From positions 310,001 through 374,000 of the forward strand of contig NZ_FMUH01000001.1 of NCBI RefSeq assembly GCF_900101025.1: DNA of 64,000 bases, read 5' to 3'. Made by a program: the position numbers and the translations under genes. The stretch is from Klenkia marina (GTDB lineage Bacteria; Actinomycetota; Actinomycetes; Mycobacteriales; Geodermatophilaceae). Below are positions 33,692-37,163 of this stretch, piece after piece; within the stretch, counting starts at the first letter, position 1; each line of letters begins with the position of its first letter. The notes beneath the pieces were generated by a model that saw only the letters and a list, made by a program, of their open reading frames with translations, was not told the origin of the DNA and did not search any database.

Positions 33692-34912
33692 GTGCCCGAA
33701 GCCGTCATCGTCTCCGCCGCCCGCTCCCCCATCGGCCGCGCGTTCAAGGGGTCGCTCAAGGACCTGCGCCCCGACGACCTCACCGCGACCATCGTGCGCG
33801 CGGCGCTGGACCAGGTGCCCTCGCTCGACCCCCGCGACATCTCCGACCTGATGCTGGGCTGCGGCCTGCCGGGCGGGGAGCAGGGCTTCAACATGGGCCG
33901 CGTCGTGTCCGTGCTGCTGGGCATGGACCACCTGCCCGGCACCACGATCACCCGCTACTGCTCGTCGTCCCTGCAGACCACCCGCATGGCCCTGCACGCC
34001 ATCAAGGCCGGCGAGGGCGACGTCTTCATCTCGGCCGGGGTCGAGATGGTGTCCCGCTTCGCCAAGGGCAACTCCGACGGCCTGCCCGACACCGAGAACC
34101 CGGTGTTCGCCGACCGCAAGGCCGAGATCGCCGAGGTGGCCGAGACCGGCGCCGACTCGTGGACCGACCCGCGCGAGGACGGCGGGATCCCCGACGTCTA
34201 CATCGCGATGGGCCAGACCGCGGAGAACCTGGCGCTGCTCAAGGACGTCTCCCGCGCCGAGATGGACGAGTTCGCCGTCCGGTCGCAGAACCTGGCCGAG
34301 AAGGCCATCGCCGACGGCTTCTGGGACCGCGAGATCACCCCGGTCACCACCCCCGACGGCACGGTGGTCAGCAAGGACGACGGCCCCCGCGCCGGCACCA
34401 CGCTCGAGGGCATCTCGCAGCTCAAGCCGGTCTTCCGTCCCGACGGCCGCGTGACCGCGGGCAACGCCTGCCCGCTCAACGACGGCGCCGCGGCGCTGGT
34501 GATCATGAGCGACACCAAGGCCGCCGAGCTGGGCATCACCCCGCTTGCCCGCATCGTGTCGACCGGTGTCACCGGCCTGTCGCCGGAGATCATGGGCTAC
34601 GGGCCGGTCGAGGCCTCCAAGCAGGCGCTGGCCCGGGCGGGCATGACCATCGACGACATGGACCTCGTCGAGATCAACGAGGCCTTCGCCGCGCAGGTCA
34701 TCCCGAGCTACCGCGACCTGGGCATCGACATCGACAAGCTGAACGTGCACGGCGGGGCCATCGCCGTCGGCCACCCGTTCGGCATGACCGGCGCCCGCAT
34801 CACCGGCACGCTGCTCAACGGCCTGCGCTCGACCGACGGCACCTTCGGCCTGGAGACCATGTGCGTCGGCGGCGGCATGGGCATGGCGATGGTGCTCGAG
34901 CGCCTCAGCTGA
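33692..34912 (+). CDS. Acetyl-CoA acetyltransferase (thiolase)
   Basis: A 406-residue thiolase. The nucleophile is Cys90 in R-Y-C-S-S-S-L-Q-T; N-E-A-F-A-A-Q-V, G-H-P-F-G-M-T-G-A-R (His) and C-V-G-G-G-M-G-M-A (second Cys) complete the active site. It condenses or cleaves acyl-CoA, in fatty-acid oxidation or acetoacetyl-CoA formation; sequence does not decide between them. GTG 33692 has ggagg a few bases upstream. The minus strand across this gene is an open frame continuing from the DUF559 gene, discussed separately. Confidence 0.94.
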   Translation: MPEAVIVSAARSPIGRAFKGSLKDLRPDDLTATIVRAALDQVPSLDPRDISDLMLGCGLPGGEQGFNMGRVVSVLLGMDHLPGTTITRYCSSSLQTTRMALHAIKAGEGDVFISAGVEMVSRFAKGNSDGLPDTENPVFADRKAEIAEVAETGADSWTDPREDGGIPDVYIAMGQTAENLALLKDVSRAEMDEFAVRSQNLAEKAIADGFWDREITPVTTPDGTVVSKDDGPRAGTTLEGISQLKPVFRPDGRVTAGNACPLNDGAAALVIMSDTKAAELGITPLARIVSTGVTGLSPEIMGYGPVEASKQALARAGMTIDDMDLVEINEAFAAQVIPSYRDLGIDIDKLNVHGGAIAVGHPFGMTGARITGTLLNGLRSTDGTFGLETMCVGGGMGMAMVLERLS

Positions 34913-34959
34913 CCTGCGGGGGCGCCCCCCGCGCCCCGACCGGCCCACCCGACCCGGCC

Positions 34960-35023
34960 ACTGTGCAGTTGCGGTCGCCCGCACCGGCGCGCCACCGCGC
35001 GTCGACGACCGCAACTGCACAGT
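34960..35023. repeat. Palindromic repeat, copy 1 (downstream of DUF559 gene)
   Basis: actgtgcagttgcggtcg (34960-34977) and its perfect reverse complement (35006-35023), 18 base pairs with a 28-base GC-rich spacer. It lies directly after the last conserved residue of the DUF559 domain and just past the thiolase gene. A second copy is at 36046-36107. Confidence 0.92.
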
Positions 35024-35902
35024 CGCGCCTGCACACCACCGGGCGTCCCGGCTGCGCAGCGCAGAGCGCACCCGGTCCAGGACCACCTGCGGGCGCCCGA
35101 GGTGGACGTCGGCGAAGCGCAGCGTCAGCCATCCCTGGGCCGAGAAGAAGCTGTACCTCTCCACGTCGCGGCGGAACTGCTCCCGCTCGGCGTGCTGACG
35201 TCCCTCGTACTCGACCAGGATCCGCCACCGCTCGTAGCCCAGGTCACCGTGGGCGACCACGACGCCGGCCCGGTCGCGCACGGGCACCTGGACCTCGGGC
35301 GGCGGCAGGTCGCTGTCGAGCAGGTACCACCGGACGATGCTCTCGGGCCTCGACGCGGCGCCGGCGTGCAGCAGTGGGGCGACCCGTCTCGCGAGCACGA
35401 CACCGCGCGCGCCCGCTGCGCCGTCGAGCAGGGCTGCGAGGTCGTCGCGCGCCAGGTGGCCGGACCGGAGCAGCGCGTCGCCCACGGCCAGCAGCTCTGC
35501 GGGGGGCAGGTCGGCGGCCAGGTCGAGCCAGGTGCGCCCGGGCGAGGTCAGGCGGAGGCCGAGGTGGGTCCGCACGTCCTCGTCGTCCAGGGTCCGCTGC
35601 GACGACCGGAAGCCCTCGCGCCTCGGCCTGGCCACGCCGGGTGGGACGACCACCCGGACCGGCGGCCGATGGTCCAGAGGAGCGCCCCAGAGCACCGCCG
35701 CCGTCCGGTGGCCGAAGACGGCGTCCACCGGGAGGACCAATGCGGCAGCCCGGCAGAGCGCGAGCAGCGAGGGCGGCAGCGCCTCGGAGACGTAGGCGCC
35801 ACGCGTCGCCCGCCGGCCGTCCTGCCGCCGCTGCGCCCGGGTGAGGCCGGCGTCGTGCGCCTGCTGCCAGGTGTACACGGGTGCGAGCGCGCCGCCGGCC
35901 AT
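35024..35902 (-). pseudogene. AbiEi-like/DUF559 protein lacking its own stop codon
   Basis: About 293 residues. An N-terminal AbiEi-type helix-turn-helix region (Y-T-W-Q-Q-A-H-D-A-G-L-T-R-A-Q, then V-F-G-H-R-T-A-A-V-L-W-G-A-P) is followed by a DUF559 domain with H-G-D-L-G-Y-E-R-W-R-I-L-V-E-Y-E-G-R-Q-H, the PD-(D/E)XK-like core of Vsr-type nucleases. The conserved part ends near 35036. There is no stop: the frame runs through the palindromic repeat and on, antisense to the whole thiolase gene, to 33674. I give the supported domain only. ATG 35902 is taken; GTG 35950 is possible. Probably a 3'-truncated or read-through gene. Confidence 0.7.
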
Positions 35903-36045
35903 GCCCGCCACCGTCGCCCGCCCGCATCCCTGCGGGGCCCATCCGGCCACGTCTGTGGACGGGGCCCCGCCATGTGGACGGCGGGCAGCGCGCCCCCTCC
36001 CGACCTGCTACGCCCGCCCGGCCCCTGCGCCCGTCGCGCCCGTCG

Positions 36046-36107
36046 ACTGTGCAGTTGGGGTCGGCGACACGCAGGGGCTCGCCGGTTGCGACGACCGCAA
36101 CTGCACA
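36046..36107. repeat. Palindromic repeat, copy 2 (upstream of DUF559 gene)
   Basis: tgtgcagttggggtcg (36048-36063) faces cgaccgcaactgcaca (36092-36107), 15 of 16 positions paired, spacer 28 bases. The arms match copy 1 except one base in the left arm; the spacer sequence differs. Confidence 0.9.
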
Positions 36108-36148
36108 CTGGCGGGGCCGGCACGGGCACGCGCGGGGACCCCGAACGG

Positions 36149-36186
36149 ACCGAGGCCCGGCCCCCGTGCGGGGACCGGGCCTCGGT
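36149..36186 (-). terminator. Strong terminator hairpin after the Bax-inhibitor-like gene
   Basis: accgaggcccgg (36149-36160) pairs perfectly with ccgggcctcggt (36175-36186), extended inside by cccc/gggg. It lies 18 bases past the stop of the minus-strand gene at 36204. Confidence 0.8.
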
Positions 36187-36203
36187 GCGTGGTGCGGGTG
36201 CGG

Positions 36204-37013
36204 CTACTCGCGGAAGTAGCTGAGCAGACGCAGGATCTCCAGGTACAGCCAGACGACCGTGACCAGCAGGCCGAAGGCGATGTACCAGGCGGTCTTCGGC
36301 GGGGCACCGCGACGGATCGCCTCGTCGGCCATGTCGAAGTCGAGCAGCAGCGAGAACGCCGCGACACCGATGACGACGAGGCTGAACCCGATGGCCAGCG
36401 GGCCACCGTCGCGCAGGCCGGTGTTGAAGCCGAACAGCGACGCGACGAGGTTGACCAGCATCAGCGCCAGGACGCCGAACATGGCGCCGACGATCCAGCG
36501 GGTCAGCTTCGGGGTGACGCGGATGGCGCCGGTCTTGTAGACCACCAGCATCCCGAAGAACACGCCGAGCGTGCCGATGACGGCCTGCGCGACGATGCCC
36601 GGGTAGACCTGGTTGAAGGCCTCGCTGATCGCACCGAGGAACACACCCTGGATGGCCGCGTAGGCCAGGGTGGCGCCCGGGTTGGCGATCTGCTTGAAGG
36701 TGATCACCATGCCGAGCACGAAGCCGACCAGCACCAGCGGAAGGGCCAGGCCGAAGGCGACGTCCTGCGGGACCATGACCCACGTGACGGCGGCGGTGAG
36801 CACCGTGACGAGGAACGTCAGGCCGGTCTTGGTGACGACGTCGTCCATCGTCAGGTACTGGGCACCCGTGGCCGCGTACGGCGACTGCTGGGTGTAGGGA
36901 GCCGGGGAACCCCACTGCTGCTGCGACTGCTGGCCCCAGGCGGTGGCCTGGGCACCCTGGCCGTTCGCGGCACCGGGGAAGCCCCGGCTGAACGCCGGGT
37001 TGCTGCTGGGCAT
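36204..37013 (-). CDS. Bax inhibitor-1/YccA family membrane protein
   Basis: A 269-residue protein with seven membrane segments after a Gln/Gly/Pro-rich N-terminus of about 60 residues. It belongs to the actinobacterial Bax1-I group (F-K-Q-I-A-N-P-G-A-T-L-A-Y-A, Y-K-T-G-A-I-R-V-T-P-K-L-T-R). The family is linked to calcium leak and stress survival in other organisms; the bacterial role is unclear. gaggag touches an ATG at 37019 and lies six bases before a second ATG at 37013, so the second is the likelier start. The upstream gap to 37169 holds its promoter and a hairpin belonging to the next gene. Confidence 0.9.
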   Translation of the reverse strand: MPSSNPAFSRGFPGAANGQGAQATAWGQQSQQQWGSPAPYTQQSPYAATGAQYLTMDDVVTKTGLTFLVTVLTAAVTWVMVPQDVAFGLALPLVLVGFVLGMVITFKQIANPGATLAYAAIQGVFLGAISEAFNQVYPGIVAQAVIGTLGVFFGMLVVYKTGAIRVTPKLTRWIVGAMFGVLALMLVNLVASLFGFNTGLRDGGPLAIGFSLVVIGVAAFSLLLDFDMADEAIRRGAPPKTAWYIAFGLLVTVVWLYLEILRLLSYFRE

Positions 37014-37112
37014 CGTCATCTCCTCGAGGTGACTCGGTCGGGTGCGTGGGCCGGGTGGAGCTGACCCACTCGACCACCACAACGCACGTGTGCGCCGATC
37101 GGTTCCTGGGGG

Positions 37113-37163
37113 CCGGCTGGACGTGACCACACCGTGATCACCGAGGTGACCACGTCCAGCCGG
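37113..37163 (-). terminator. Terminator hairpin after the M28 peptidase gene
   Basis: ccggctggacgtg (37113-37125) pairs perfectly with cacgtccagccgg (37151-37163), 13 base pairs, with gtgaccac-type inner repeats. It starts a few bases after the peptidase stop. Confidence 0.75.

Follow-up and report, generated by a model that had tools for sequence, protein, structure and literature searches.

DUF559 Genes Bracketed by Matched Palindromes in Klenkia marina and Related Actinomycetota

The Locus and Its Protein

The window, a stretch of 64,000 nucleotides of the Klenkia marina genome, contains a unit (34956..36113, no strand assigned) composed of a DUF559 gene between two palindromes; relatives lack this unit in the corresponding intergenic gap. 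The gene lies on the minus strand (35036..35902), comprises 289 codons from an ATG to the end point of close relatives, and matches Pfam DUF559 with 24.8 bits (cut-off 20.6). Both neighbors are outside the unit: on the left a thiolase (33692..34912, plus strand; Pfam Thiolase_N and Thiolase_C), which marks the insertion site, and on the right a Bax-inhibitor-1-like protein (36204..37130, minus strand; Pfam BaxI_1). A terminator-like hairpin past the Bax-inhibitor gene (36145..36190, no strand assigned) is also outside the unit and occurs in relatives that do not have it.

The left palindrome, downstream of the gene (34956..35027, minus strand), has 16-nt arms TGTGCAGTTGCGGTCG and a 28-nt spacer and scores 85.7 bits with a covariance model (K. 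marina genome position G000:C7:344956-345027); its arms extend over 34957-34977 and 35006-35026, with 28 nt between. The right one, upstream of the gene (36042..36113, plus strand; 78.5 bits), has one arm mismatch, its arms (36048-36063 and 36092-36107) being again separated by 28 nt. An earlier note on this DNA had described two such palindromes at either end of the gene, with arms of 16-18 nt and a 28-nt spacer, and in both respects it was correct. With one element reversed, the two agree at 58 of 72 positions. The window contains five arm matches at up to three mismatches (1.11 expected; at least five in 0 of 100 shuffles). Since the chance that any two of 16 random positions fall within 1.2 kb of each other is 0.066, the window alone is weak evidence, and the case rests on recurrence in other genomes. 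The best Rfam match over a window element reaches 21.5 bits, under the gathering score of 44, and thus assigns it to no curated family. This sub-threshold match (34965-35039, minus strand, E 0.52) is to the mycobacterial sRNA Ms_IGR-8, a family that might itself be such a palindrome.

The modeled protein consists of two halves. Residues 1-179 (35366..35902, minus strand) form AbiEi-like DNA-binding and middle domains, the N-terminal half adopting an AbiEi-type fold, while residues 180-289 (35036..35365, minus strand) form a nuclease domain with an EDxHD/Vsr-like catalytic fold, closest to the homing endonuclease I-Bth0305I (Foldseek E only 0.078) and to Vsr. The earlier note had ascribed a Vsr-like fold to DUF559. 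Residues E187, D220, E231, and H237 are invariant among 38 homologs, for which the start positions first used were guesses, and D246 is found in at least 90%; from their order, E187, D220, H237, and D246 would be the residues of the EDxHD motif. PF18741 was matched in three of seven homologs scanned, each time under its cut-off. A DUF559 gene is placed in the EDxHD family by PMC9403480. No AbiEii toxin gene adjoins the window gene, whose neighbors are the thiolase and the Bax inhibitor, the unit itself being one-gene. The window frame lacks a stop at the relatives' end point (35018-35060) and continues into the left palindrome, so that this copy may be decaying or inactive, or the assembly may be wrong there.

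The Window Palindrome Family in Its Own Genome

Across the 14 contigs (4.22 Mb) of the whole genome, 29 sites match the 16-nt arm at up to two mismatches, compared with four for a reversed control. Twenty-two of these form 11 pairs spaced by exactly 44 nt, and five further elements have a partner arm past the mismatch limit, giving 16 elements in all. The arm-to-arm distance is 44 nt in 15 of the 16 and the element span is 72 nt in 15, with 71 nt in one. A covariance model built from the 16 elements recovers every one of them in this genome at 62 bits or more; it was applied to the best 150 of 25,668 initial candidates, and weaker copies may escape. When each element is first turned to its better-fitting orientation, a weak spacer consensus emerges (positions 18, 21, 23, 29, 31, 33, 35, and 37, at least 1.66 bits). 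The proposal that arms are conserved and spacers are not thus survives for the arms only, as the spacers have near-constant length and this common consensus.

Pairing between the arms of the 16 elements (88.8% of cells) equals that of shuffles. Arm substitutions are therefore uncompensated, and nothing within this genome favors an RNA stem; an RNA-structure reading of the family was discarded on these grounds and for want of any Rfam match above its gathering score. Together, the decayed, uncompensated arms and the missing stop suggest that the window copy may be inactive. Fourteen of the 16 elements lie away from any DUF559 gene.

The genome encodes six DUF559-type genes, four identified by Pfam search and two more by protein search. 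Five of them have matched palindromes, with sequences that differ from gene to gene: besides the window gene, those at C13:149809, C8:506528, C8:858070, and C7:378221 have their own. At C5:69380 a palindrome is found downstream only (gene starts were assumed for this gene and for C7:378221). Searching for the window arm near these genes finds it at the window gene only, an outcome which, taken alone, corresponds to the chance association that the earlier note had named as its refutation. Nevertheless, because other lineages have their own, different palindromes, we set the verdict of chance aside.

Several arrangements in this genome merit description. The C7:378221 gene (L088) lies just outside the window, at what would be position 68221, with GGGGTATCGGAAGC-type palindromes on both sides. 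The stretch L151 8724-10940 (C13:149723-151940) has a second palindrome-DUF559-palindrome unit, of another palindrome family, together with a third palindrome 1 kb past the unit, beyond two further frames which we take to be Hsp20-like and MerR-like. At L325, two palindromes of this second family about 1 kb apart enclose other frames, with no DUF559 match.

Bracketing of DUF559 Genes across Genomes

The census covered 41 genomes and 75 named loci. At least 24 of the 41 genomes have a match to the window model at E ≤0.01, and in several genera element pairs occur 1.02-1.04 kb apart. All eight such pairs examined (L078-L085) enclose a DUF559 homolog 55-66% identical to that of the window. From the protein side, 93 matches were reduced to 91 loci in 28 genomes by merging two fragments of one gene and dropping a 3' fragment in G028. 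A palindrome of score 12 or more is found upstream at 68 of the 91 loci, downstream at 59, and on both sides at 48, compared with 0/273 and 1/273 for shuffled flanks (mononucleotide shuffles, the positional control below being the better one). The two flanks resemble each other (score ≥16) at 74 of the 91 loci, against 12 of 546 cross-locus pairs, and at 46 loci both flanks are palindromic and matching. When the analysis is restricted to the 83 loci whose gene span is clean, matched palindromes bracket 43 genes, in contrast to none of 112 same-size intervals shifted by 1.7 kb.

Conversely, at 43 of the 91 loci at least one side falls short of a score-12 palindrome. Some of the hairpins counted are foreign to the unit; for example, the upstream match of the window gene is the Bax-gene hairpin, its own palindrome scoring 13. 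Of the named loci, mostly from Blastococcus, Modestobacter, Geodermatophilus, and Klenkia with four from Microbacteriaceae, 74 of 75 were usable: 50 have two palindromic flanks, 60 have matching flanks, and 46 satisfy all three measures. Their cross-locus control is inflated (65/444), as many share palindrome families, and the named and unnamed sets share genomes and so are not independent. Two of the four Microbacteriaceae loci are bracketed. Element length is 57-80 nt in 104 of 117 cases, and across all families GA(G/T) occurs within the first 12 nt of the arm in 162 of 204 palindromes, compared with 421 of 1650 random stretches.

In two loci, L247 and L253, the best upstream and downstream hairpins seem to belong to different families; these are perhaps recombinant units. 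Near position 3385 of L185 an N run and a poly-C stretch fall within a palindrome adjoining DUF559, which suggests that assemblies break at these palindromes, whose number may be underestimated.

Palindrome Families Follow the Protein

Palindrome similarity rises with protein identity. In a comparison that drew on 108 loci whose flanks match, reduced to 93 once repeats were removed, palindromes are alike (score ≥16) in none of 3063 protein pairs below 40% identity and in 2 of 459 at 40-50%, and the counts increase to 41/540 at 50-60%, 75/185 at 60-80%, and 13/15 above 80%. The correlation with palindrome similarity is lowest for the N-terminal 48 residues (rho 0.11) and reaches 0.37 for the middle domain. 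These correlations, which phylogeny confounds, do not favor the N-terminal HTH as the part that reads the sequence.

A similar picture emerges within the bacterial family. All nine genomes with a window-type DUF559 contain window-type elements at E ≤5.1e-15, and the other 16 contain no strong element (best E 1.2e-10; kinship uncorrected). Window-type here means a gene on the same side of a 99/99 branch as that of the window. That side also takes in two outgroup rows and, with the tree rooted, does not form a strict clade; of the other 16 genomes, eight have genes on the other side of the tree and eight have a best match of at most 51% identity or none. Other genes have palindromes of their own. 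That of the second G010 gene has 20 arms in G010, of which 16 form pairs at 49 nt, against 0-4 per genome in the other 24. That of a G031 gene has 21 arms in G031, among them six pairs spaced 43 nt and a further pair spaced 46 nt, compared with 0-2 in three further genomes. That of a Microbacterium gene has 12 arms (≤3 mismatches; control 2), including two pairs at 39 nt. In the second family of the K. marina genome (C13:149809), 45 sites match the arm at up to three mismatches (control 0); 28 of them form 14 pairs 47 nt apart and the rest are background-like.

This second family is also present in G001-G003, with no cognate gene established there. Likewise, eight of the nine window-genus genomes contain TGATCATGGGGTTGTTGCC; among them are G000, G005, G006, and G007, where no cognate gene is established. 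Weak window-type matches occur in G016 and G021. Thus, the cognate pairing is not strict. Tandem palindromes, resembling clustered REP elements, are seen 249 nt apart in G010 (L324 2539-2853) and 93 nt apart in G031 (L330 2246-2398).

Gain, Loss, and Change of Place

The comparison of filled with empty orthologous gaps, which the earlier note had proposed, shows the window gap without the unit in nearly all relatives. A Bax-inhibitor match was found in 36 relatives; 22 loci were covered, seven order-level loci were left out, and seven matches had no locus. In 20 of the 22, including all seven same-genus genomes with a Bax match, the thiolase adjoins the Bax inhibitor with no DUF559 gene and no element between. 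In the remaining two, L134 has no thiolase and L141 has it about 1 kb off, neither with DUF559. The sequence of 17 gaps was read. In five genomes of other genera the gap contains unrelated long palindromes: G009 (L126), G016 (L132), G021 (L136), G010 (L137), and G011 (L138), so that it seems to have received palindromes repeatedly. Such palindromes are what one would point to if the elements were mobile repeats or terminators in their own right, and DUF559 genes simply sat where these gather or are tolerated. However, palindrome sequence pairs with protein identity, both ends of a unit are similar in anatomy, and the shifted positions yielded no matched palindromes at all, which leaves this explanation highly improbable.

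A second site, next to a class-V aminotransferase, has the palindrome-DUF559-palindrome arrangement in many relatives, while the K. marina genome has a single window-type palindrome there (L042). Among the matches listed, and by site clustering, the window site is distinct from this common one. Six same-genus units at the aminotransferase site fall into two far-apart groups with different palindromes, and a single clade for the six is rejected (AU p 1.5e-29). Replacement of one lineage by another explains this most simply; an early double occupancy followed by losses is a possible alternative. In G011 (C18), the two halves of the neighborhood of the aminotransferase site lie 27 kb apart (L084, L085), each with a DUF559 gene and in opposite orientation, the layout that would result if two units had recombined to give an inversion.

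Units also occur in both orientations at one site. The congeners G013 and G023 have oppositely oriented units between flanks 92-93% identical, the units themselves sharing about 70% nucleotide identity; the switch falls at the palindromes, where one assembly has an N run. Inverted same-site pairs in which both flanks match were found in three site clusters. About 600 nt past the common palindrome, G023 contains some 780 nt (L314 3163-3942) missing in G013 (L318), which look like an added gene. Gap alignments revealed no target-site duplication and no exact boundary, intergenic divergence being too high for boundaries to be placed.

Four solo palindromes were compared with relatives, and all lie closely behind a stop codon. 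The solo at C5:131738 is absent in G005, and at the sites of C5:77444 and C5:285458 relatives have different or diverged hairpins. These observations bear on a regulatory explanation, according to which the AbiEi-like half acts as a repressor, with the palindromes as its operators, the solos as its regulon, and the nuclease fold as a relic. AbiEi and Rv2827c each bind their own promoter at inverted repeats (PMC7319586). The N-terminal half here is AbiEi-like, most of the genes that share at least 48% identity with that of the window have a palindrome 65-148 nt ahead of the aligned start, and the solo L035 is shortly ahead of the likely start of the next gene. However, autoregulation is hard to reconcile with palindromes on the downstream side as well, with the position of the four solos behind stop codons, with nuclease residues kept invariant in 38 homologs, and with units that are gained or lost and inverted; we regard it as quite improbable.

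Movement of the gene would nonetheless be infrequent. The 91 units fall into 40 site clusters, one of them with 15 loci, and the presence of many units at one site across genera indicates that the gene moves rarely. Such stability agrees with a REPtron-like domestication, in which the protein copies palindromes at a low rate as hairpins or cruciforms without homing, and the gene stays, with cognate elements inserted beside it as with RAYT and REPIN. The small number of genes and many solos per palindrome family, the hairpin-capable elements, and the tandem palindromes of G010 and G031 fit this scenario too, and TnpAREP genes are mostly single-copy beside cognate REPs according to PMC8266576. 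In contrast, the unit here seems to have been moved or replaced, judging by the empty gap of relatives, the genome's own solo at the old site, and the two lineages at one site; moreover, the K. marina genome has no HuH/Y1 enzyme and the window family no GTAG tag. We therefore consider domestication unlikely, though the most credible of the three alternatives.

A Proposed Mechanism

The window thus appears as one member of a broad system, in which a gene lies between two copies of its own palindrome of about 60-70 bp and solo palindromes occur elsewhere. We put forward that the AbiEi-EDxHD/DUF559 protein is probably an endonuclease acting on its cognate palindromes, in a homing-like or REPtron-like manner. 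The earlier suggestion of a nuclease acting on or spreading its own palindromes finds partial support in bracketing and cognate pairing; binding, cleavage, and movement by repair-driven copying are what we infer from these patterns.

A protein dimer would sit on the duplex palindrome with one monomer per conserved arm, which would keep the arm spacing. Conserved arms, near-constant spacing, and the lack of pair compensation are explained more readily by a dimer on duplex DNA than by a folded strand. PMC3943268 describes I-Bth0305I as dimerizing on a target nearly 60 bp long, a length near that of the palindromes here, and we count this in favor of the proposal. The enzyme would cut inside the palindrome or beside it. 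A broken gene-less palindrome might then be repaired from a palindrome-gene-palindrome copy, with the palindromes serving as homology, so that the unit could enter either way round. A solo would be left where repair failed or where the two flanking palindromes recombined with each other. Since the palindromes flanking the nuclease gene are themselves intact, some restraint on cutting in cis is required. The proposal applies to sites that already have a palindrome.

DUF559 is still of unknown function in Pfam. If its AbiEi-fused branch does act on cognate palindromes, those genes gain a function, and many unexplained intergenic palindromes of Actinomycetota a likely maker. The same loci (91 in 40 site clusters) would then provide natural nuclease/site pairs, with the presumed site readable wherever palindromes are detectable, as well as a non-homologous comparison for the origin and persistence of REPtron-like systems. 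Overall, the data suggest a little-noticed kind of mobile DNA.

Comparison with Known Systems

The earlier note had likened the palindromes to REP/REPIN elements mobilized by RAYT transposases. That assignment was rejected: PF01797, the HuH/Y1 transposase domain (Y1_Tnp), was not found in the K. marina genome by a search that was positive in 5 of 14 known genomes, and GTAG, the usual form of the conserved tetranucleotide that precedes REP palindromes, is absent from the consensus of the 16 window-family elements. The absence of a Y1 transposase from this genome equally separates the unit from IS200/IS605 elements, which also have palindromic ends around a small gene (PMC8266576).

The resemblance to REPtrons lies in organization. 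In both, a nuclease gene adjoins its cognate palindromic repeats, which are dispersed in the genome, co-vary with the enzyme lineage, and persist for long. Unlike the HuH/Y1 enzyme of REPtrons, that of the present system is an AbiEi-EDxHD fusion, its elements are mostly 57-80 nt long with near-constant arm spacing per family, and those of the window family have no GTAG. Furthermore, two whole palindromes enclose the gene, which seems to change its place or orientation or to be replaced, whereas PMC8266576 states that tnpAREP mobility has no evidence behind it.

With EDxHD homing endonucleases such as I-Bth0305I the unit shares the fold, to judge from the modeled protein. However, the DNA-binding half is AbiEi-like, and the gene is bracketed by whole copies of its presumed site instead of interrupting one. 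Compared with the AbiE type IV antitoxins AbiEi and Rv2827c, a nuclease domain has been added, and the window's unit has no toxin gene. Vsr and the restriction-type nucleases represented by MTES_1575 have the same nuclease fold, but the gene here is flanked by cognate palindromes.

DUF559 genes bracketed by palindromes are undescribed in the titles and abstract openings of the matching open-licence literature, and no known kind in the literature searched combines these parts. On a stricter reading, the system could be a variant among REPtron-like systems. We see about an even chance that it constitutes a separate class of selfish element, an AbiEi-EDxHD endonuclease homing into its own palindrome, where the target forms both ends, orientation is free, the palindrome is private to the lineage, and solos are footprints; it would then be a second, independently evolved REPtron-like system.
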